Below, one piece after another: positions 49,288-63,307 of a DNA stretch of 64,000 nucleotides. This DNA is from a bacterium. GTDB taxonomy: Bacteria > Bacillota > Clostridia > Lachnospirales > Lachnospiraceae. Within the stretch, counting starts at the first letter, position 1; every line of letters begins with the position of its first letter. A program made the translations under genes and the position numbers. Location of the stretch: the NCBI GenBank assembly GCA_023664305.1, contig JAMPFT010000007.1, positions 80,947-144,946 of the forward strand, read 5' to 3'. Under the pieces are notes generated by a model, which had not been told where the DNA came from, did not search any database, and worked only from the letters and a program-made list of their open reading frames with translations.

Positions 49288-49393
49288 ACACGTCAGAATA
49301 CCAAAGAATGCCCGAAAACGCAAGTTTGAACCGCAAAGTACATACTTTGTCTCACGGAGGATGTGTCGTGCTGCACGGCAGGATGAGGAACAT

Positions 49394-50653
49394 ATGATAA
49401 TAAATCTGATTATTTTAATTGTAGGGCTGGCGGTTTACGCCGGATACGGTATCTCGGTTCTGTATCTGCTGGCCGTGACCCTGTTGGGCTATCTGGTGGG
49501 GCGGCTGATCCCAAAGCGCCGCCAAATCGCATGGGTCAGTATTGTTCTGCTGGCGCTTCCGCTTCTCTTTTTTCGGATTCAACGCTTCACTCCGTGGCAG
49601 TCCATTATCGCCCCGCTCGGCATTTCCTATTTTACGCTCCAGATTATAGCATATCATGTGGATTTGTACCTGGGCAAATACGAGCCGGAAAAGAATCTGC
49701 TGCGGTTCGGCCTGTTTGTCACTTATCTGCCTCATATCTTCATCGGACCGATCGAGCCTTACCCCACAATGCGCGCCGCGCTGGAGGAAAGACATATCAA
49801 CGGGGACAGTTTTTTGAAGGGTGCTGTCCGTGCGCTGTGGGGACTGTTCAAAAAGCTGGTGATCGCCGCCAGGCTCGGTGTCATCGTATCTGCGATTTCC
49901 GCGAAACCGGAGGAGTTCAACGGCGCTTACGCCCTTGCAGCGATGCTTCTGTACGCGATTCAGCTTTACGCGGATTTTTCCGGCGGAATCGATATTGTGC
50001 TTGGCGTATCCCGAATGCTGGGCATCCGAATGAGCGAGAATTTTGACGCGCCTTACTTTTCCCAGTCGATCCAGGAATTTTGGCGGCGCTGGCATATCAC
50101 GCTGGGCAGCTGGCTCCGGGAATATGTGTACTTTCCGCTGGGCGGCAACCGCAAGGGAAAGCTGCGGAAATATATAAATACCCTCGTGACGTTCCTGGTC
50201 TCCGGCCTCTGGCACGGCGAAACCTATCTCCTCTGGGGAGTAATACACGGAATCTTCGTCTCCTTTGGGGAAAAGCTTAAGACAAAGAGCAAAACGCTGA
50301 ACCGTATCGGCACCTTCCTGCTGGTCAGCTTTCTCTGGTCGTTTTTCATCTGGCCGGACACGGTTACCGTACTGCGGATGATCGGTTCTGTATTCACCGT
50401 CTTTAATTACAACGCTCTCTTTGCGGGAATCGGCTCGATGGGGCTTGCCGCGGGAGACTGGATCGTCTTAGGCGTCGCCTGTGTGCTGCTCTGGATTTAT
50501 GACTGGAAAAGCAAGAGCCTGAAGGCCGGCTTCTGCGCGTTTGCACCGGCGGCAAAGGTCGGCGTGATCGCTCTGCTGGCGCTGACGGTTCTCACCTTTG
50601 GAATGTACGGCTTTGGCTTTACGGCTTCCGAGTTTATTTACAGCCGTTTTTGA
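49394..50653 (+). CDS. MBOAT family O-acyltransferase (DltB/PatA/AlgI-like)
   Basis: A 419-residue polytopic membrane protein starting at ATG 49394 (GAGGAACAT upstream). It has about ten hydrophobic spans and the MBOAT landmarks FWRRWHITLGSWLREYVYFP, GLWHGETYLLWGVIHG (expected catalytic His in the HG pair). Such enzymes pass acetyl or D-alanyl groups across the membrane to a wall polymer or polysaccharide with an SGNH partner. The next gene encodes such a partner. Which polymer is modified is not known. Confidence 0.9.
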   Translation: MIINLIILIVGLAVYAGYGISVLYLLAVTLLGYLVGRLIPKRRQIAWVSIVLLALPLLFFRIQRFTPWQSIIAPLGISYFTLQIIAYHVDLYLGKYEPEKNLLRFGLFVTYLPHIFIGPIEPYPTMRAALEERHINGDSFLKGAVRALWGLFKKLVIAARLGVIVSAISAKPEEFNGAYALAAMLLYAIQLYADFSGGIDIVLGVSRMLGIRMSENFDAPYFSQSIQEFWRRWHITLGSWLREYVYFPLGGNRKGKLRKYINTLVTFLVSGLWHGETYLLWGVIHGIFVSFGEKLKTKSKTLNRIGTFLLVSFLWSFFIWPDTVTVLRMIGSVFTVFNYNALFAGIGSMGLAAGDWIVLGVACVLLWIYDWKSKSLKAGFCAFAPAAKVGVIALLALTVLTFGMYGFGFTASEFIYSRF

Positions 50654-50657
50654 CCGG

Positions 50658-50710
50658 AAAAAAGCGAGCTTCGCTCGCTTGCTGCGGCGGGATTTCCTAT
50701 AGAGTAAAAA
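50658..50710 (+). repeat. Dispersed repeat family A, copy 5
   Basis: AAAAAGCGAGC ttc GCTCGCTT hairpin, then GCTGCGGCGGGA and TTTCCTATAGAGTAAAA. It fills the gap between the MBOAT and SGNH-like genes, ending 16 bases before the latter's ATG, so it lies inside the operon mRNA. Confidence 0.85.
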
Positions 50711-50725
50711 TTTTGAGGTGTGGAT

Positions 50726-51778
50726 ATGAAGAAAAAGGGAAAAACGATTATTTCCGTGGGAGCCGTCCTGGCGGCTTTCTGCGTTGCGTTCGTGCTGATC
50801 TCCATGCTTCTCCAGCCGAAATATATGACAGACCTGGAGGAGGGCAGCTTTATCGCCGAGTATTACGACGAGGCGGGCGGCCACGACGTCATATTTCTCG
50901 GGGACTGTGAGGTATACGCAAACTTTTCTCCCATGGAGCTGTACCGAAACAACGGCATTACGTCCTACATCAGGGGAACCCCGCAGCAGCTTGTCTGGAT
51001 GAGCTATTATGTGGCGGAAGAAACCTTCCGGTATGAGACGCCCCGCGCGATAGTGTTTAACGTGAATGCCATGCGTTATTCCGAGCCGGTCAGCGAAGCT
51101 TATAACCGCCTGACCATCGATAAGATGCGCTGGTCCAAAAGTAAGGCCGGTATTGTCTCGGCTTCCATGACGGAGGGGGAACAATTCCTTTCCTATGTGT
51201 TTCCCATCCTCCGCTATCACTCCCGGTTCGATAAGCTGACACAGGAGGATTTTTCCTATCTGTTCCGAACCAGGGACAATACCTTCAACGGCTTCCAGCT
51301 TCACACGGAAATTGTGCCTGAAGGATCTTTTCCGGTAAAGAGAGCTTTGTCCGATTATCGGTTTGGGGATATCTGCTACGAATATCTGGATAAAATCCGT
51401 CTGCTTTGCGAGGAAAACGAAACGGAGCTGATCCTTGTCAAGGCTCCCAGTCTCTATCCTTACTGGTACGACGAATACGACGGACAGATAAGAGAATATG
51501 CCGCAAAGTACGGGCTTTCGTTTTATAATTTTGTAGAGCGGACGGAAGAAATCGGGCTGGACTTCTCGAAGGATACTTACGACGGCGGTTACCACCTGAA
51601 TCTGTCCGGGGCGGTCAAGCTGTCCCGGTATTTCGGAGATATCCTGACGGAAGAACACGGGATGGAGGATCACCGCCAGGATCCCGAAATTGCAGCCGTT
51701 TACGCTGAAAAACTGCAGACCTATGACAAGACGATTGAAGAAAGAATGAGGTTACAAAAAGATGAAGAAAATAACTAA
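50726..51778 (+). CDS. Membrane-anchored SGNH/GDSL-like protein, MBOAT partner
   Basis: A 350-residue protein with one N-terminal transmembrane helix (about 10-29). FLGDCEVYANFSP fits the block I position of SGNH proteins, but with Asp-Cys instead of Asp-Ser. DGGYHLNLSGAVKLSRYF has the conserved Asp and His of block V. DltD, AlgX and PatB proteins have this layout and complete acyl transfer outside the membrane. GAGGTG sets the ATG at 50726. It overlaps the lipoprotein gene by 17 bp. The Cys in the nucleophile block could be a real variant and deserves attention. Confidence 0.75.
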   Translation: MKKKGKTIISVGAVLAAFCVAFVLISMLLQPKYMTDLEEGSFIAEYYDEAGGHDVIFLGDCEVYANFSPMELYRNNGITSYIRGTPQQLVWMSYYVAEETFRYETPRAIVFNVNAMRYSEPVSEAYNRLTIDKMRWSKSKAGIVSASMTEGEQFLSYVFPILRYHSRFDKLTQEDFSYLFRTRDNTFNGFQLHTEIVPEGSFPVKRALSDYRFGDICYEYLDKIRLLCEENETELILVKAPSLYPYWYDEYDGQIREYAAKYGLSFYNFVERTEEIGLDFSKDTYDGGYHLNLSGAVKLSRYFGDILTEEHGMEDHRQDPEIAAVYAEKLQTYDKTIEERMRLQKDEENN

Positions 51779-52358
51779 GATACTTTTGCCGCTGGGAATT
51801 GCCGTGATGCTTGCAGGCTGCGGCCAGGCAAACCCGGCCGGAAACATGGAACAGAATATCACTCTTGGCTCAGGCAGCCTGGAAAACGCCGCGGGGGATA
51901 TCGCCGGAGGAAACGGGACGCAGCAGGAACCGGAGGCGTCAAATCAGGAAAAGGACTCCGCGGAGGAGGGCGTATACAGCTTTGTCTACGAAAATGTTAC
52001 TTTGACCCCGGGAGAGATTTTTGATCAGACCGCGCTGGGCGATCCCGCCACGGTCTCTGAGGTTCCCAGCTGTGCCTTTGAGGGAAACGACAAAATGTAT
52101 AACTATGAGGCCTTTGAGCTGACGGCTTACATCGAGGAGGACGGAGAACGCATTTATTCCATCTATTTTATCGATCCCAATCTGCCTACGACGGAAGGCC
52201 TGTGCCTCGGAGACACGGTGGAGGACATGAAGTCCCGTTACGGGGAAAACTATGCTGTAGAGGGTTCCTCCTACGTTTACACAAGAGGGGATACCCTGCT
52301 GTCCGTCGTCACCCAAAACGATACGATCGTCGGTATCGAGTACCGGCTGAACCGTTAA
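51762..52358 (+). CDS. Lipoprotein of unknown function
   Basis: A 198-residue protein with a lipobox (GIAVMLAGC), a 50-residue Gly/Asn/Glu-rich spacer and a compact C-terminal domain (about 70-198) with LTPGEIFDQTALGDPATVSE and GLCLGDTVEDMKSRYGENY, a PepSY/BLIP-like alpha-beta pattern seen in some clostridial lipoproteins. It overlaps the SGNH-like gene by 17 bp and closes the operon. A role in envelope modification is inferred from context only. Confidence 0.75.
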   Translation: MKKITKILLPLGIAVMLAGCGQANPAGNMEQNITLGSGSLENAAGDIAGGNGTQQEPEASNQEKDSAEEGVYSFVYENVTLTPGEIFDQTALGDPATVSEVPSCAFEGNDKMYNYEAFELTAYIEEDGERIYSIYFIDPNLPTTEGLCLGDTVEDMKSRYGENYAVEGSSYVYTRGDTLLSVVTQNDTIVGIEYRLNR

Positions 52359-52359
52359 C

Positions 52360-52510
52360 AAAGTGCCTCTGCGCGGCACTTGAAAGAATGCTTCGCATTC
52401 TTCCCTTGCTGCGGCGAGGTTTCAAAAGTGCTTTTATGTGACGCTTTGTGGCGAAGCTTCAAAGTGTCCTATGTAACGCTTAGCGAGCGAAGCTTCCTAT
52501 CGAATAAAAT
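52360..52510 (+). repeat. Dispersed repeat family A, copy 6 (compound)
   Basis: Starts with the hairpins AAGTGCC/GGCACTT and AAGAATGC/GCATTCTT as at 17.3 kb, then shows three successive versions of the box: GCGGCGAGGTTTC, GTGGCGAAGCTTC and GAGCGAAGCTTCCTATCGAA ending TAAAAT. This suggests internal duplication or nested insertion. Confidence 0.75.
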
Positions 52511-52634
52511 AGTCCATATAGAAAGTGCTGCGGTCTGTTTTGACAGACAGCAGTTTTTCTATGGGCAAATTAGACCGACGGTTTTAAAACTTCTAAACCA
52601 AATAAACCAATCGTGCCTTCCTTTTGCGGGTTTC

Positions 52635-52712
52635 TATGGTAAAATATCCTTATTCAGGGCAGGAAACGGCCGAATGGCCATCCGTACCGTGATTGCAATG
52701 CAATCATGGTAA
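52635..52712 (+). repeat. Dispersed repeat family C, copy 2
   Basis: A 78-bp near copy (five transitions) of 10072-10149 in the opposite orientation, with TATGGTAA and CATGGTAA ends. It lies 60 bp upstream of the HTH regulator ATG and may carry or overlap its promoter. Confidence 0.85.
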
Positions 52713-52771
52713 AACAAATTCATCCGGAATGCCTGCTGCCGGATCAAGCGATTGCAAAACGGAGGTTCCAA

Positions 52772-53869
52772 ATGAAACTGACTCTTCCCGAAAACATATG
52801 TCGGCTGCGAAAAGCCCATTCCATGACCCAGGAACAGCTGGCGGAAGCCCTGGGCGTCACCTTTGCCGCCGTCTCAAAGTGGGAGCGGGGAATTGCAACT
52901 CCCGATTTAAGCTATATCACAGAGATGGCCGGACTTTTTGAGGTCTCGCTGGATGTGCTGGTAGGATATCAGGTGTACAGCGGCGTCTGTGCCGCGCTGG
53001 AACAGCGGATTTTCAGCCTCCAGCAGGAAAAGAAGCTGGACGAGGCGGCCCGGGAAGCCGAAAAGGCGTTAGTTCGATATCCCAACGATTTCTGTCTCGT
53101 GTACCGATGCGGCGAACTGTATCAGTTAAAGGGCCTTGAGCACTCGGATCCGAAAGCCCTGGAGCGTTCGATCGAGCTGCTGAATCATTCCCTGCTGCTT
53201 TTGTCGCAGAACACGGATCCGGAAATCAACGAGTATTCCATCCGGACCAAAATTGCCCTGTGCTATATTTCTCTGGGGCGGAATGAACAGGGTCTGGAGC
53301 TTTTGAAAAAGTATAATATCGGCGGTATCCACAACGCCCTGATCGGCATGACCTACTCGGCATCGGAAGCGGACGACCCGGAAGCGGCGATTCCGTATCT
53401 GACAAAAGCCTTTGCCAACTGCATTACGGAGGTTTCGCGGGTCATGAACGGCTATGCAAACTACTACGCCCGCAAAAACGATCCGGCATCCGCCCTGGAC
53501 GCCGTGCTCTGGCTGACGGAATATCTCGAATCCGTCAGTCCCGGCGACGATACCGTGACCTACATGGATAAGCTCCGCAGCGCCTTTTATGCGGCGTGCG
53601 CCCATCTCTCCGATAAGATGGGCAAAACGGAGGATATGGCATTCTATTTGCGCAAAGCCTTTTCCCTTGCGCAAAAATTTGACGCGTCGCCGACCTATAA
53701 TATTTACAATAATCGGTTTGCGATCGGCGAACTGCCGAACAGCACCGCTTACGACGATGTGGGCGCTACAGCCATGGATTCCATTGAAGGTCAGATGCGG
53801 CAGGGGGAAGACTGGAGCGACGGCATGCGCGCCCTCTGGCAGAAGCTTAAGGAGGAAAACGGCGTCTGA
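52772..53869 (+). CDS. HTH (XRE family) regulator with TPR-like C-terminus
   Basis: A 365-residue protein: helix-turn-helix at about 5-65 (MTQEQLAEALGVTFAAVSKW), then a helical repeat region with TPR-like units (DEAAREAEKALVRYPNDF). CGGAGG sets the ATG at 52772. It lies 80 bp before an ABC exporter gene in the same direction. XRE-TPR regulators of this kind often respond to peptides or stress; here it probably controls the exporter. Confidence 0.85.
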   Translation: MKLTLPENICRLRKAHSMTQEQLAEALGVTFAAVSKWERGIATPDLSYITEMAGLFEVSLDVLVGYQVYSGVCAALEQRIFSLQQEKKLDEAAREAEKALVRYPNDFCLVYRCGELYQLKGLEHSDPKALERSIELLNHSLLLLSQNTDPEINEYSIRTKIALCYISLGRNEQGLELLKKYNIGGIHNALIGMTYSASEADDPEAAIPYLTKAFANCITEVSRVMNGYANYYARKNDPASALDAVLWLTEYLESVSPGDDTVTYMDKLRSAFYAACAHLSDKMGKTEDMAFYLRKAFSLAQKFDASPTYNIYNNRFAIGELPNSTAYDDVGATAMDSIEGQMRQGEDWSDGMRALWQKLKEENGV

Positions 53870-55673: not shown

Positions 55674-58121
55674 TTACCAGCGCGCTCCTGACCATGCCTG
55701 TGCGATATCCGCCTCGATTTCCTCCTCTGTCAGGAAATTAACGGTTCCCCGGATATTATTTTTCGTCGCAACCTGCCTGTCCGCCGGGCAGTCCAGGATC
55801 CCGAACCAGGTAAACGTACCGCCAAAGCCCTCCGTTCCCGCCTCGTCGAGATAAGTAAAATACAGACGCGTTCCCTTTATCTCCTGAAGGAAATCCAGCG
55901 ACGTCAGCGGATTTCCGTACACTGCCAGCCGATCGTAATTTATGCTTCCCCCGAGCTGCAGGGAAGAAATGGCGTTGCTGCTCACATCCAATACATAATA
56001 AGAGTCCTCCGCTTTTGCCGTCAGGGCCTCCAGGGTTTCCACGTCTTCAATCCGGTTGTGCGCCAGATACAGATACCGAAGCCTGACCGCGTTTTCCAGA
56101 CCGTCCGTAGAGGTAATCAGGTTATGCTCGGCAGACAGCCCGCGTAACGCAGCGGAATCCGCCAACGGCTCCAGGGAAACAATCCCGTTCCCGTCCAGAT
56201 TCAGGTACTCTAAAGCCGCGGTTCCTTTCAGGGCGTCAATGCTTTCGAGCCGGTTGCCGCCCAGATACACCTTCTTCAGCGTTGCCGCGCTCTTTGCAAG
56301 AATCGAAATGTCTGAAATCCCGTTGTCCGTCAAATCGACATGCGTTAAAACCGTACAGTTCTGCAGGCCGTCGATCTCCGCGATCTCGTTTTCCGCCGCC
56401 TCAATCTCCTTTAACTCCAAAGCCTGCTCCAACCCGGTCAGGCCGGTCAGGCGGTTCCGGTTCACCCGCACGGTGCTCAGCTTCGCACAGCCCGACAGGG
56501 GAGCAAGGCTTGCAACCGCGTTATCGTTCAGCTCAAGAACCGTGAGCTGCGCCATACCCGCAAGCGGCGAAATATCCTCGATACGGTTTCCGCTCAGATC
56601 CAGCTCGCGGACCGTTTCGTTTCCGGCAAACGAAGACAGGCTCTCGATCTCGTTATCCGCAAGGCTTAAATAGACGATTCCCTGACCCTTCAGGGAAGAA
56701 AGATCCCGGATCCCGCAGCCGTCCGCCGATAACGTCCGAAGAGCGGTACAGGCCGACAACACCGTAAAGTCTGTGACGGAAGTGTTGTTCACCTGTAAAT
56801 CCGACAGAGCAGAAGCAGTCTTTAAGGGAGTGAGATCCGACAGCTCCCCGTTTCCGTTCAGGAAAATATCCGTTATCACGTCACTGAAGGTAACGGCTCC
56901 CAGCTCCGCATCGGTAAGACCGCAGCTGTCTATTTTCAGCCTTTTAAGAGACCTCAGCTCCGAAAGCACGCCGTAGTCCTTTATTCCGGTACATTCGGTA
57001 AGCTCCAGCGTCGTCAGCGTAGGCGAAAGGGAACCCAGCCGATCCGCCGCGCCCTCCTCAAAGCTGCACCCGTTAAAGTACAGGTATTTTAATTCCTCCA
57101 AAGACGCCAGATTTCGGACATCTTCCTCGGTAACCGTCACCCTGGAAAGAGACACGCTGGTCTCTCCGGGCTTGACCTCTTTCCCGGCTACCGTCACCGC
57201 GCCGCCTCCCGATGCGGCTGAAAAAACAATGATAAGGAGAATCAGCAGGGCGGCCGCAGCGCCTCCCGCCGTCAGCAGTATCTTCTTCTTTTTTCCGCTT
57301 CCCTCCTGCGTATCCTGCTTTTTATTTTCCGTCGGATTTTCGGTCTTTTTCTTTTTGCCGAGATTCTGCAGGGAGATTCCTTTATGGGGTATGACAGGTG
57401 CGTCATTTTCTGTTTCTGTCTTCGGCGCTTCCTTAGCTGCATCTTTTGGCTCCGCAGCCGAGGCAGGAGGTTTTTCTGCTTCTCTCTCCGTTGCCTTGCC
57501 TGCCTTCTTTGGCTCCGCAGTCGAGGCAGGAGGTTTTTCTGCTTCCGCCTTTGACGCCGCTTCTCCTGTTCCCGCTGCTTTCGCCGCTTCAAGACCGCGC
57601 GCGTCTCTTCCCGATTCTTTCTCCGAAACCCGCGCCTCCACATGGGATGTTTCCCGGCTCTCTCCGCTTTTTTCCCGGGGCTGCGCCATACACGCGCTCA
57701 AAAACTTCGCGGTGCAGACCTTCGCGTAAAAAGCCTCGTCATCGGGGAACGTGTATTTTGAGACGGACTGTGTTGCGGATAACTGCATCTCCATCCCCAG
57801 CGACAGCTCCACCGGTTCGAGAACAATCGTGATAAAGGACTTCTTTTTTCTCAGGGCAAAATTAATTTCTCTCCGACAATTGTGTGAATTGAGATAATTC
57901 TCCGACAAAAAGGCAATACACACCTCGCAGTTGTTCAAATGCTCCGCAATGGTTTCCGGCCATTCCGAGCCGGGATCTATCCCTTCGTCATACCAGATCC
58001 GATAACCCATCTCGGCGAGCCTTTCCACGATCGGATACACGCGGTCATTGTCTTTGTGGGCATAACTGATGAAAATGTATTTTTCCTTACCCTCGTAAGG
58101 CTCCAGCGAACAACGTATCAT
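55674..58121 (-). CDS. TIR - transmembrane - leucine-rich-repeat receptor-like protein
   Basis: An 815-residue protein. The N-terminal TIR domain (about 13-145) has YIFISYAHKDND, WYDEGIDPGSEW and SENYLNSHNCRREINFA; Glu85 fits the position of the NADase catalytic Glu of active TIRs. A low-complexity Lys/Ala/Pro/Glu linker (about 150-275, with AEKPPAS repeats) leads to KKKK and one transmembrane helix (about 279-300). About 17 LRR units of 21-23 residues follow (about 335-760; pattern LxxLxLxxNxIxDIxPLxxL), then an 80-residue cap. By positive-inside rule the TIR lies in the cytoplasm and the LRR outside. It probably senses a surface signal and triggers NAD+ cleavage or signalling; this is inference. 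Confidence 0.87.
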   Translation of the reverse strand: MIRCSLEPYEGKEKYIFISYAHKDNDRVYPIVERLAEMGYRIWYDEGIDPGSEWPETIAEHLNNCEVCIAFLSENYLNSHNCRREINFALRKKKSFITIVLEPVELSLGMEMQLSATQSVSKYTFPDDEAFYAKVCTAKFLSACMAQPREKSGESRETSHVEARVSEKESGRDARGLEAAKAAGTGEAASKAEAEKPPASTAEPKKAGKATEREAEKPPASAAEPKDAAKEAPKTETENDAPVIPHKGISLQNLGKKKKTENPTENKKQDTQEGSGKKKKILLTAGGAAAALLILLIIVFSAASGGGAVTVAGKEVKPGETSVSLSRVTVTEEDVRNLASLEELKYLYFNGCSFEEGAADRLGSLSPTLTTLELTECTGIKDYGVLSELRSLKRLKIDSCGLTDAELGAVTFSDVITDIFLNGNGELSDLTPLKTASALSDLQVNNTSVTDFTVLSACTALRTLSADGCGIRDLSSLKGQGIVYLSLADNEIESLSSFAGNETVRELDLSGNRIEDISPLAGMAQLTVLELNDNAVASLAPLSGCAKLSTVRVNRNRLTGLTGLEQALELKEIEAAENEIAEIDGLQNCTVLTHVDLTDNGISDISILAKSAATLKKVYLGGNRLESIDALKGTAALEYLNLDGNGIVSLEPLADSAALRGLSAEHNLITSTDGLENAVRLRYLYLAHNRIEDVETLEALTAKAEDSYYVLDVSSNAISSLQLGGSINYDRLAVYGNPLTSLDFLQEIKGTRLYFTYLDEAGTEGFGGTFTWFGILDCPADRQVATKNNIRGTVNFLTEEEIEADIAQAWSGARW

Positions 58122-62259: not shown

Positions 62260-62400
62260 ATGTATAGAATACTAAAAATCGGGATGGATGTCCATAGTAC
62301 AAATTACACTTGTGCAACGGGCGTTGCACTTTTTGCAGCAACTGCCTTTCTAAAAAACTTACTAATTAGTTTCCATCTGCGGCAATCCCGATGTATTTAA
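62260..62400 (+). pseudogene. IS110 family transposase remnant (5' end)
   Basis: An ATG with AAAAGGAGACC upstream encodes MYRILKIGMDVHSTNYTC, the typical N-terminus of IS110-type DEDD transposases with the first catalytic Asp. After Cys18 the homology stops abruptly at a small palindrome (TGCAACGGGCGTTGCA). Some 300-380 residues are missing. The 60-100 bp upstream may be the left end of the insertion sequence, which in intact IS110 elements encodes the bridge RNA. The KilA-N gene converges on and overlaps the truncated frame. Confidence 0.75.
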
Positions 62401-63213
62401 GGACTCCATCGTCCGCATCTGTTTTACCGCCAAATCACGCAACGCAATCAATCTTTCCGACTGCTTTTTACCCTGCTCGATCAGTATGGCATTATAGCTC
62501 TCCATATTTGCAAGCACCAGTAATTGATTAAGTGTTGCATAATCTCTGATATTCCCTTTTTTGTCTATATTTTCTGTACGCCATTGCCTTGCGGTTTTAC
62601 CAAATAGAGCCATATTCAGTAGATCAGCTTCACTTGCATAAGTAAAATTAATCTGCTCCGATGTTAATTCAGGCGGTATCAAGTTCGCCTTGATTGCATC
62701 GGTATGAATGCGATAATTCAATTTAGAAATCTCTCTGTTCAAATTCCAATTCAAAGACAGCCTGCTGTTTTCATCCAATTTCAAACGACGATAGTCTTTC
62801 ATAATATATAATTGAAATTCAGGAGAAATCCATGTGGCAAAAGACATTGCAATATCACTGTGAGCATATGTACCACCGCCATAGCGTCCCGCTTTTGATA
62901 TAATGCCAATAGCACTCATTTGCTCTATTCATTTCGTCGGTGTCATTACAAAGCGATTTAATCCTGCTTCATTTTTAACCGCCTCGAATTGCACACGGTT
63001 AAAATCAGGATTATGTAATTCTTCCCAGACTGCCAAAAATTCTATCGTATTTCGATTACGCATCCAGTTTTGAATTACAAATCTCGGATCGTCTTCATTG
63101 CGATATTTGGCAATATCCGTCAATGAGATAAACTCATTTTCAAAATCCGTTGTATATATGCCTATCTCGATACCTTTTGCATGAATTGTTTCTTCTATAA
63201 TCTTTTTCCCCAT
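62362..63213 (-). pseudogene. KilA-N domain protein interrupted by an in-frame TGA
   Basis: The frame from ATG 63213 (AAAGGAG upstream) encodes the first half of a KilA-N domain (YTTDFENEFISLTDIAKYRN, then WMRNRNTIEFLAVWE) up to MTPTK, then TGA at 62929-62931, and continues in the same frame IEQMSAIGIISKAGRYGGGT, AHSDIAMSFATWISPEFQLY. KilA-N proteins carry Trp at this point (TPKKWIE-like), so TGG has become TGA. Total length without the stop would be 283 residues. KilA-N proteins are phage- or plasmid-derived DNA-binding proteins. The gene is probably a recent pseudogene, unless the TGA is read through or is a sequence error. Confidence 0.8.
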
Positions 63214-63307
63214 CTGCATCTCCTTTATTATTTTCTCCAGGCAATGTTTGGACATGTTTATCACATTTAGTATATCGCATGGCACCATTCACCACAAGAG
63301 AAAATCT

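Follow-up and report, generated by a model that had tools for sequence, protein, structure and literature searches.

Locus and protein layout

The window, a 64,000 nt stretch of a contig from a gut bacterium of the Lachnospiraceae, carries on its minus strand an open reading frame of exactly 55674-58121 with no internal stop codons. Judged by its sequence, the encoded protein consists of a TIR domain, a linker, one transmembrane (TM) helix and a series of leucine-rich repeats (LRRs), with TIR_2 and LRR_4 matches that are above chance (Table 1). The first-pass annotation had described an N-terminal TIR domain and a low-complexity linker followed by a KKKK patch and one TM helix, and these elements hold: the Pfam TIR_2 match covers residues 16-106 (E = 1.6e-23), and the helix, the sole 19-residue stretch whose Kyte-Doolittle mean exceeds 1.9, directly follows the four lysines. 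The glutamate that it singled out, Glu85, lies in the motif NCRREINFAL. Its internalin/SDS22-type assignment of the repeats also stands, and its count of about 17 is plausible, yet a relaxed pattern counts 14, with starts between residues 344 and 681 that are mostly 21-23 residues apart and two gaps in the series, each about two repeats long. Among PDB chains, the LRRs match 5il7 best (E = 9.7e-59), then internalin A (E = 8.7e-43), and also protein phosphatase 1 regulatory subunit 7 (E = 2e-18); NCBIfam internalin models match with E-values of 8e-30 or weaker, every one of them far under its whole-protein cut-off.

Table 1. Features of the gene and its protein product in window coordinates.
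Feature	Position	Strand	Basis or remark
Whole gene, 815 aa TIR-linker-TM-LRR	55674..58121	-	ATG start; ORF and Pfam
TIR domain, residues 16-106	57804..58076	-	Pfam TIR_2, E 1.6e-23; predicted cytoplasmic output
E85 codon, candidate NADase glutamate	57867..57869	-	Invariant in 16 rows of alignment A1
Low-complexity A/E/K/P-rich linker, residues 148-276	57294..57680	-	Sequence; predicted cytoplasmic
KKKK positive patch, stop-transfer side, residues 277-280	57282..57293	-	Sequence
Single transmembrane helix, residues 281-299	57225..57281	-	Kyte-Doolittle mean 2.76
Ectodomain N-terminal cap, residues about 308-356	57054..57200	-	HMM matches in L120, L087, L119
LRR solenoid, residues about 344-735	55917..57092	-	Pfam LRR_4, E 5.5e-45; 14 repeat starts
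Ectodomain non-LRR C-terminal cap, residues about 740-815	55677..55904	-	Alignment A3; HMM of the part after GNPL

In agreement with the earlier description of a single gene with no defence partner next to it, the gene is flanked by RecQ, encoded upstream on the same strand, and by an ABC transporter that converges from the other side; a tRNA scan of the window found none. When the neighbours at 19 TIR loci, several of them on short contigs, were compared all-against-all, no family spanned more than three loci, and a partner-based operon for the fused form is therefore not supported. Elsewhere in the window, positions 49361-53869 encode an MBOAT acyltransferase, a Pfam-less protein, a small lipoprotein-like ORF and an HTH gene; the MBOAT, the small ORF and the HTH gene have counterparts next to the TIR gene of L086, and the group is common to the window and that locus only. 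Further, two adjacent ORFs at 62362-63288 (minus strand), in a stretch of 37% GC, appear by eye to be pieces of one broken gene, presumably of the KilA-N type.

A mobile or viral origin was considered and rejected. A plasmid search at E = 1e-15 gave no match, viral contigs gave one 34% match (L103), and the one phage-labelled record (L104, MT836178.1) is an unannotated, 'UNVERIFIED' entry whose TPR-TIR ORF lies among genes that look bacterial by eye. In the window's genome, caspase was not found, nor were ThsA-type effectors (STALD and ThsA_Macro), with the STALD control silent and the ThsA_Macro control giving one genome below cut-off.

The TIR family and its predicted topology

In an alignment of 16 TIR domains (A1), both E85 and its C-x-x-E context are invariant throughout. 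The A1 profile matches 17 distinct sequences of solved structures at E <= 0.01, the best of which is Cat1, a CRISPR-associated TIR (E = 7.1e-8), followed by TLR and MyD88 TIRs. The profile alignment places E85 in the same C-x-x-E column as in Cat1, with a glutamate present at the catalytic position; in this column MyD88 has a glutamine, and the glutamate is also kept in TIRs that are not known as NADases, such as TLR15. NADase activity through E85, the candidate glutamate of the first-pass annotation, would be the most likely output of the window TIR. Other matches include the Pfam ThsB_TIR model, at 18.9 bits and under its 21.2-bit cut-off, and TIR-only PADLOC models, the best being PDC-S66 (E = 3.3e-10).

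The TIR family is rare in its own taxonomic family, where the A1 profile matches 15 of 298 genomes at E <= 1e-25; in a sample of the phylum it matches 3 of 398, the window's own genome being included in both counts. In a genus sample, the whole protein is matched in 21 of 61 genomes at 1e-10, with a full-length match only in the window's genome and G050, most of the others being LRR-only and two TIR-only. The nearest relative, L035, comes from a Roseburia MAG and equals contig C74 of the genome G050, which belongs to the window's genus. Most of the named relatives are MAG sequences from Lachnospiraceae, Oscillospiraceae and further Clostridia; two stem from Coriobacteriia and one from an archaeon. 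The majority are host-associated or of rumen origin.

Across the 40 TIR relatives examined, a set from which L046 was dropped as it shares a contig with L084, a single TM was seen in 29, three TMs in one and no TM in 10. The survey of homologues shows that the TIR-TM-LRR order with caps recurs, but that the part after the TM varies and the neighbourhood is not conserved. In particular, the TM is followed by the capped LRR in some relatives, by short LRRs in L097 and L098, by BspA-type LRRs in L036 and L037, by Sel1 in L091 and L094, and by PASTA in the related TIR protein L096 (E = 2.7e-12); in the other TIR-TM relatives this part has no domain assignment. The TM-less relatives carry TPR (L047), FHA (L052 and the TIR-FHA gene of L087), BspA-type LRRs (L090a, L090b and L099), BspA and other LRRs (L100 and L101) or, in an archaeal MAG (L055), WD40 and LRR, and in L093 the C-terminal part has no assigned domain. 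Homologues with intracellular LRRs had been named as a sign against the surface reading, and this is borne out in part: some of the 10 TM-less proteins do have LRRs, but these are BspA-type or lack the caps. The TM-less TIR-LRR relatives show that not all TIR-LRR proteins depend on a membrane.

The window's genome encodes four TIR_2 proteins, in all of which a single TM comes after the TIR. The three beside the window protein are one whose beta-propeller match is weak and under the cut-off (L061:3291-6782, minus strand), one with repeats and DUF6273 (L062:3769-6963, plus strand) and one with MORN repeats (L063:5817-7922, minus strand).

The charge distribution predicts an N-in/C-out topology for the window protein, with the TIR inside and the LRRs outside. 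Lysine and arginine number six in the 20 residues before the TM and two in the 20 after it. Among 29 one-TM relatives, counted over 20 residues on each side, K/R before exceeds K/R after in 27 (mean 6.3 versus 2.5), the exceptions being a tie in L038 and a reversal in L053, a mis-started fragment. For the capped ectodomain described below, each of the 18 distinct carriers, 14 of which were themselves used to build the C-cap model, has a single TM that is preceded by more K/R than follow it. The proposed surface receptor therefore stands, by prediction, as a one-pass protein with its LRRs outside. Composition differs as well: compared with the C-terminal parts of the 10 TM-less relatives, the ectodomains contain less K/R (7.8% versus 11.9%; Mann-Whitney p = 0.0007) and more N/S/T (24.1% versus 17.0%; p = 0.00009), p-values that are not corrected for relatedness. 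Cysteine content shows no difference between the two groups, and the TM group is not cysteine-depleted.

The capped ectodomain and its effector partners

The LRRs of aligned relatives are flanked by a common N-cap and C-cap. In the window's family, 14 of 298 genomes have a match to the C-cap profile (A3) at E <= 1e-6; eight of these matches span at least 106 of its 130 positions, and the other six span at most 78, on the LRR side. The eight long matches comprise six TIR-TM-LRR proteins, a diverged TIR protein in G257 (L120) and a Ser/Thr kinase in G078 (L119). A repeat with profile A4 gave 9 of 397 genomes, namely the same eight and one partial match. Class-wide, the cap search found 1 of 391 genomes, the window's own, so the wider spread rests on the loci of named relatives.

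Cap HMMs from which the LRR columns had been removed were run on 1229 ORFs of 132 loci and found 18 distinct proteins, 14 in the C-cap building set and four outside it. The C-cap HMM matches these four in L048 (3e-18), L120 (4e-13), L119 (1.4e-4) and L087 (1.6e-4), and the N-cap HMM matches L120 (1.8e-9) and the kinases of L087 (1.6e-12) and L119 (0.0069). L120 is a diverged TIR-TM-LRR protein (TIR_2, E = 2.2e-20), L119 a kinase-TM-LRR protein (Pkinase, E = 1.5e-35) and L087 a zinc-ribbon kinase-TM-LRR protein (Pkinase, E = 9.8e-25; LRR_4, E = 7.8e-42). By these scores the ectodomain link is firm for L120 and L048 and good, through the N-cap, for L087; it is weakest for L119, since it comes largely from a profile that includes the LRRs (1.5e-19). 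The outputs of the 18 carriers are this TIR in 15, the diverged TIR in one and a Ser/Thr kinase in two, the kinase cap matches being weak. Within the same ORFs, the capped ectodomain was not found on plain secreted proteins. On profile evidence, the ectodomain is a portable unit, probably a sensor, that is fused to this TIR or a diverged one and, with weaker cap similarity, to Ser/Thr kinases. From a different genome of the window's genus, a kinase-like-TM-LRR protein (L022:289-2247) gave no match to the cap models.

In G307, the receptor kinase of L087 has a TIR-FHA gene (L132:10450-11766, minus strand, equal to L087:5450-6766) 5 bp upstream of it, a gap that becomes 8 bp should translation begin at the next ATG. 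FHA domains are described as binding phosphorylated Ser/Thr peptides (PMC7159879). The arrangement reads as if a phosphothreonine relay took the place of direct fusion, and the fused TIR-TM-LRR protein and the kinase/TIR-FHA pair may be alternative versions of one principle. Apart from this gene, a single TIR-FHA gene was found; it lies in a Peptococcaceae locus (L052:3842-10433) with the order TIR-FHA, PP2C, kinase-FHA, PP2C and kinase-TM, in which a TcaA-like domain is below cut-off.

Two further kinase neighbourhoods were observed. At L119:183-5840, the kinase-TM-LRR gene is followed by an FHA-model match (1.2e-7) that by eye resembles an ABC ATPase, and by a membrane protein, possibly an ABC output for the same receptor type. 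In the window's genome, L138:1864-8909 encodes two zinc-ribbon kinases, both with a single TM; one of them has repeats that by eye resemble PASTA, and two PP2C-like genes come next.

The TIR and the ectodomain have diverged at different rates. Across seven pairs of TM relatives, which are not independent as L048 was used three times, TIR identity exceeds ectodomain identity by 12 to 34 points, for example 97.1 versus 84.9% for window/L035, 100 versus 78.7% for L044/L045 and 72.9 versus 39.0% for L049/L085. The linker diverges fastest (54% identity to L035 from residue 141 on, versus 97% in the TIR), and for window/L035 the TIR has an omega of 0.03 and the ectodomain one of 0.285. In the TM-less pair L100/L101, identity is 80.7% in the TIR, 70.4% in the middle part and 79.1% in the last part. 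Positive selection on the LRR concave face is not claimed: concave-face omega for window/L035 is 1.1 with 11 repeats and 0.88 with 14, versus 0.30 at other exposed positions (Fisher p = 0.03 with 14 repeats, uncorrected), but p stays above 0.05 in each of the five remaining pairs that have nine or more TM-LRR repeats (0.25, 1.0, 0.29, 0.87 and 0.085), two further pairs being excluded for too few repeats. On a TIR tree of 37 rows, from which L050 and L051 (truncated) and L053 (a fragment) were also dropped, the TM-LRR label needs 7 changes versus 12.5 in shuffles. Repeated exchange of the ectodomain is suggested but not proven, because the starred branches force only 2 changes and long branches meet.

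A receptor model, its alternatives and known systems

We consider it probable that the window protein is a one-pass receptor. The capped LRR ectodomain outside the cell would bind an external ligand, ligand binding or clustering would bring the cytoplasmic TIR domains together, and the assembled TIRs would act, most likely by cleaving NAD+ through E85, with the result that a signal is made or NAD+ is drained. At rest, the membrane tether and the long linker would keep the TIRs apart. Enzyme TIRs that need self-association are described (PMC8635717), and an amoebal TIR NADase may serve as a limited precedent for tethering as a restraint: its report describes toxicity in amoeba cells once the N-terminal membrane helix is removed, and its authors say that elsewhere autoactivation is not prevented by the helix alone (PMC13142454). 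Phage, wall or host ligands are candidates, and the PASTA relative leans to envelope material.

As a tentative extension, which may well prove wrong, Clostridia and Coriobacteriia would possess a class of surface LRR receptors in which one capped ectodomain is exchanged between TIR, diverged TIR and Ser/Thr kinase outputs and whose split form is a phospho-relay; such a class would be the bacterial counterpart of both TLRs and LRR receptor kinases, with a TIR that is fired from outside.

Of the alternatives, the one that survives best, though we think it unlikely, is a lone anti-phage defence protein that recognises phage at the surface and responds with abortive NAD+ depletion. TIR domains are common in phage defence, as the PADLOC matches illustrate, and the spread over 15 of 298 genomes is patchy. 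However, nothing was found that speaks positively for a defence role, the gene has neither a defence neighbour nor, over the 19 loci, a conserved one, the search for plasmid copies was empty at its threshold, the distant phage-labelled record looks bacterial, and the PASTA relative and the kinase links point equally to wall or envelope sensing.

Somewhat less credible is a protein with the same receptor topology whose TIR is a non-enzymatic scaffold, as in TLR/MyD88, that recruits another TIR protein or a partner. The invariant E85 with its C-x-x-E context in 16 A1 rows and the best solved relative, Cat1, which is a TIR effector, argue against this reading; the profile matches to MyD88 and TLR TIRs, the three further TIR-TM proteins encoded in the genome and the failure to find known NAD-signal effector families there (STALD control silent) are in its favour.

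We regard as very improbable an internalin-type adhesin on a signal-anchor helix, in which the TIR only oligomerises or ties the protein to the cytoplasm and nothing is sensed. The LRRs are internalin-like and most named relatives are host-associated or from the rumen, but the TIR is the most conserved part, neither a signal peptide nor a cell-wall sorting signal is seen by eye, and the ectodomain also occurs with kinases and with a diverged TIR and was not found on plain secreted capped proteins. Equally doubtful is a cytoplasmic LRR part, with the hydrophobic segment as a monotopic or peripheral anchor and both domains in the cytosol, for which TM-less TIR-LRR relatives and several cysteines in LRRs of a TM group without cysteine depletion speak, and against which stand the consistent charge bias (18/18), the shifted ectodomain composition and the PASTA after the TM in L096.

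The one-pass receptor reading can be set against known systems. A bacterial TIR-TM-LRR protein was absent among the literature matches listed, which did not cover the Yirmiya et al. 2025 preprint on bacterial TIR systems. The part of one survey that treats bacterial TIR groups lists diverse architectures, naming TIR-TPR and not TIR-TM-LRR (PMC7075850), and TIR domains also occur in STAND/vWA systems (PMC8195603, PMC7159879). With Thoeris ThsB and other defence TIRs, the window protein has the TIR fold family in common (the sub-cut-off ThsB_TIR match), but it has the architecture of a membrane receptor, and a ThsA-like gene was not found in its genome (STALD control silent). Listeria internalins have the same LRR type; the window protein differs in having a TIR and a TM, and secretion and wall-sorting signals were not seen in it by eye.

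A parallel in layout is provided by StkP and other PASTA Ser/Thr kinases, which are described with an N-terminal cytoplasmic effector, a long juxtamembrane linker, one TM and an external sensor (PMC12077195). The window protein has this layout, its sides being predicted, and differs in that its output is a TIR rather than a kinase; its relative L096 even has a PASTA sensor. The kinase-TM-LRR proteins of L119 and L087 have in common with it an LRR ectodomain with similar caps, a TM and a cytoplasmic effector, with a kinase in place of the TIR. Plant LRR receptor kinases, whose LRRs are at the N terminus, likewise have in common an LRR ectodomain, a TM and a cytoplasmic effector, and there too a kinase replaces the TIR. 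As relatives bear a similar outer part on a protein kinase, bacteria seem to combine receptor parts much as animals and plants do. Moreover, the LRR ectodomain common to TIR and kinase proteins, together with the pairing of TIR-FHA and receptor kinase, suggests that NAD-based and phosphorylation-based outputs are interchangeable within a single receptor design.

With animal Toll-like receptors, the window protein has in common an LRR ectodomain, one TM and a cytoplasmic TIR (PMC8635717): by prediction, a single TM and an external LRR ectodomain are found in all 18 carriers, and the TIR_2 domain lies on the K/R-rich side of the TM. The first-pass label of an inside-out receptor is thus wrong, as the LRR and TIR sides are the same as in a TLR; it is the N-to-C order that is reversed, being TIR-TM-LRR and not the LRR-TM-TIR of a type I protein. 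The window protein also differs in that no N-terminal signal peptide is seen by eye, in its internalin-like 22-residue repeats and other caps, and in a TIR that is nearer to bacterial Cat1 by profile score. The bacterial TIR systems described so far, as presented in the sources cited here, fire on events inside the cell. If the receptor reading is true, activation of a bacterial TIR by an extracellular ligand becomes testable, and bacteria would have, in a membrane TIR coupled to an LRR sensor on the outside, the TLR-like division between sensing outside and a TIR inside.
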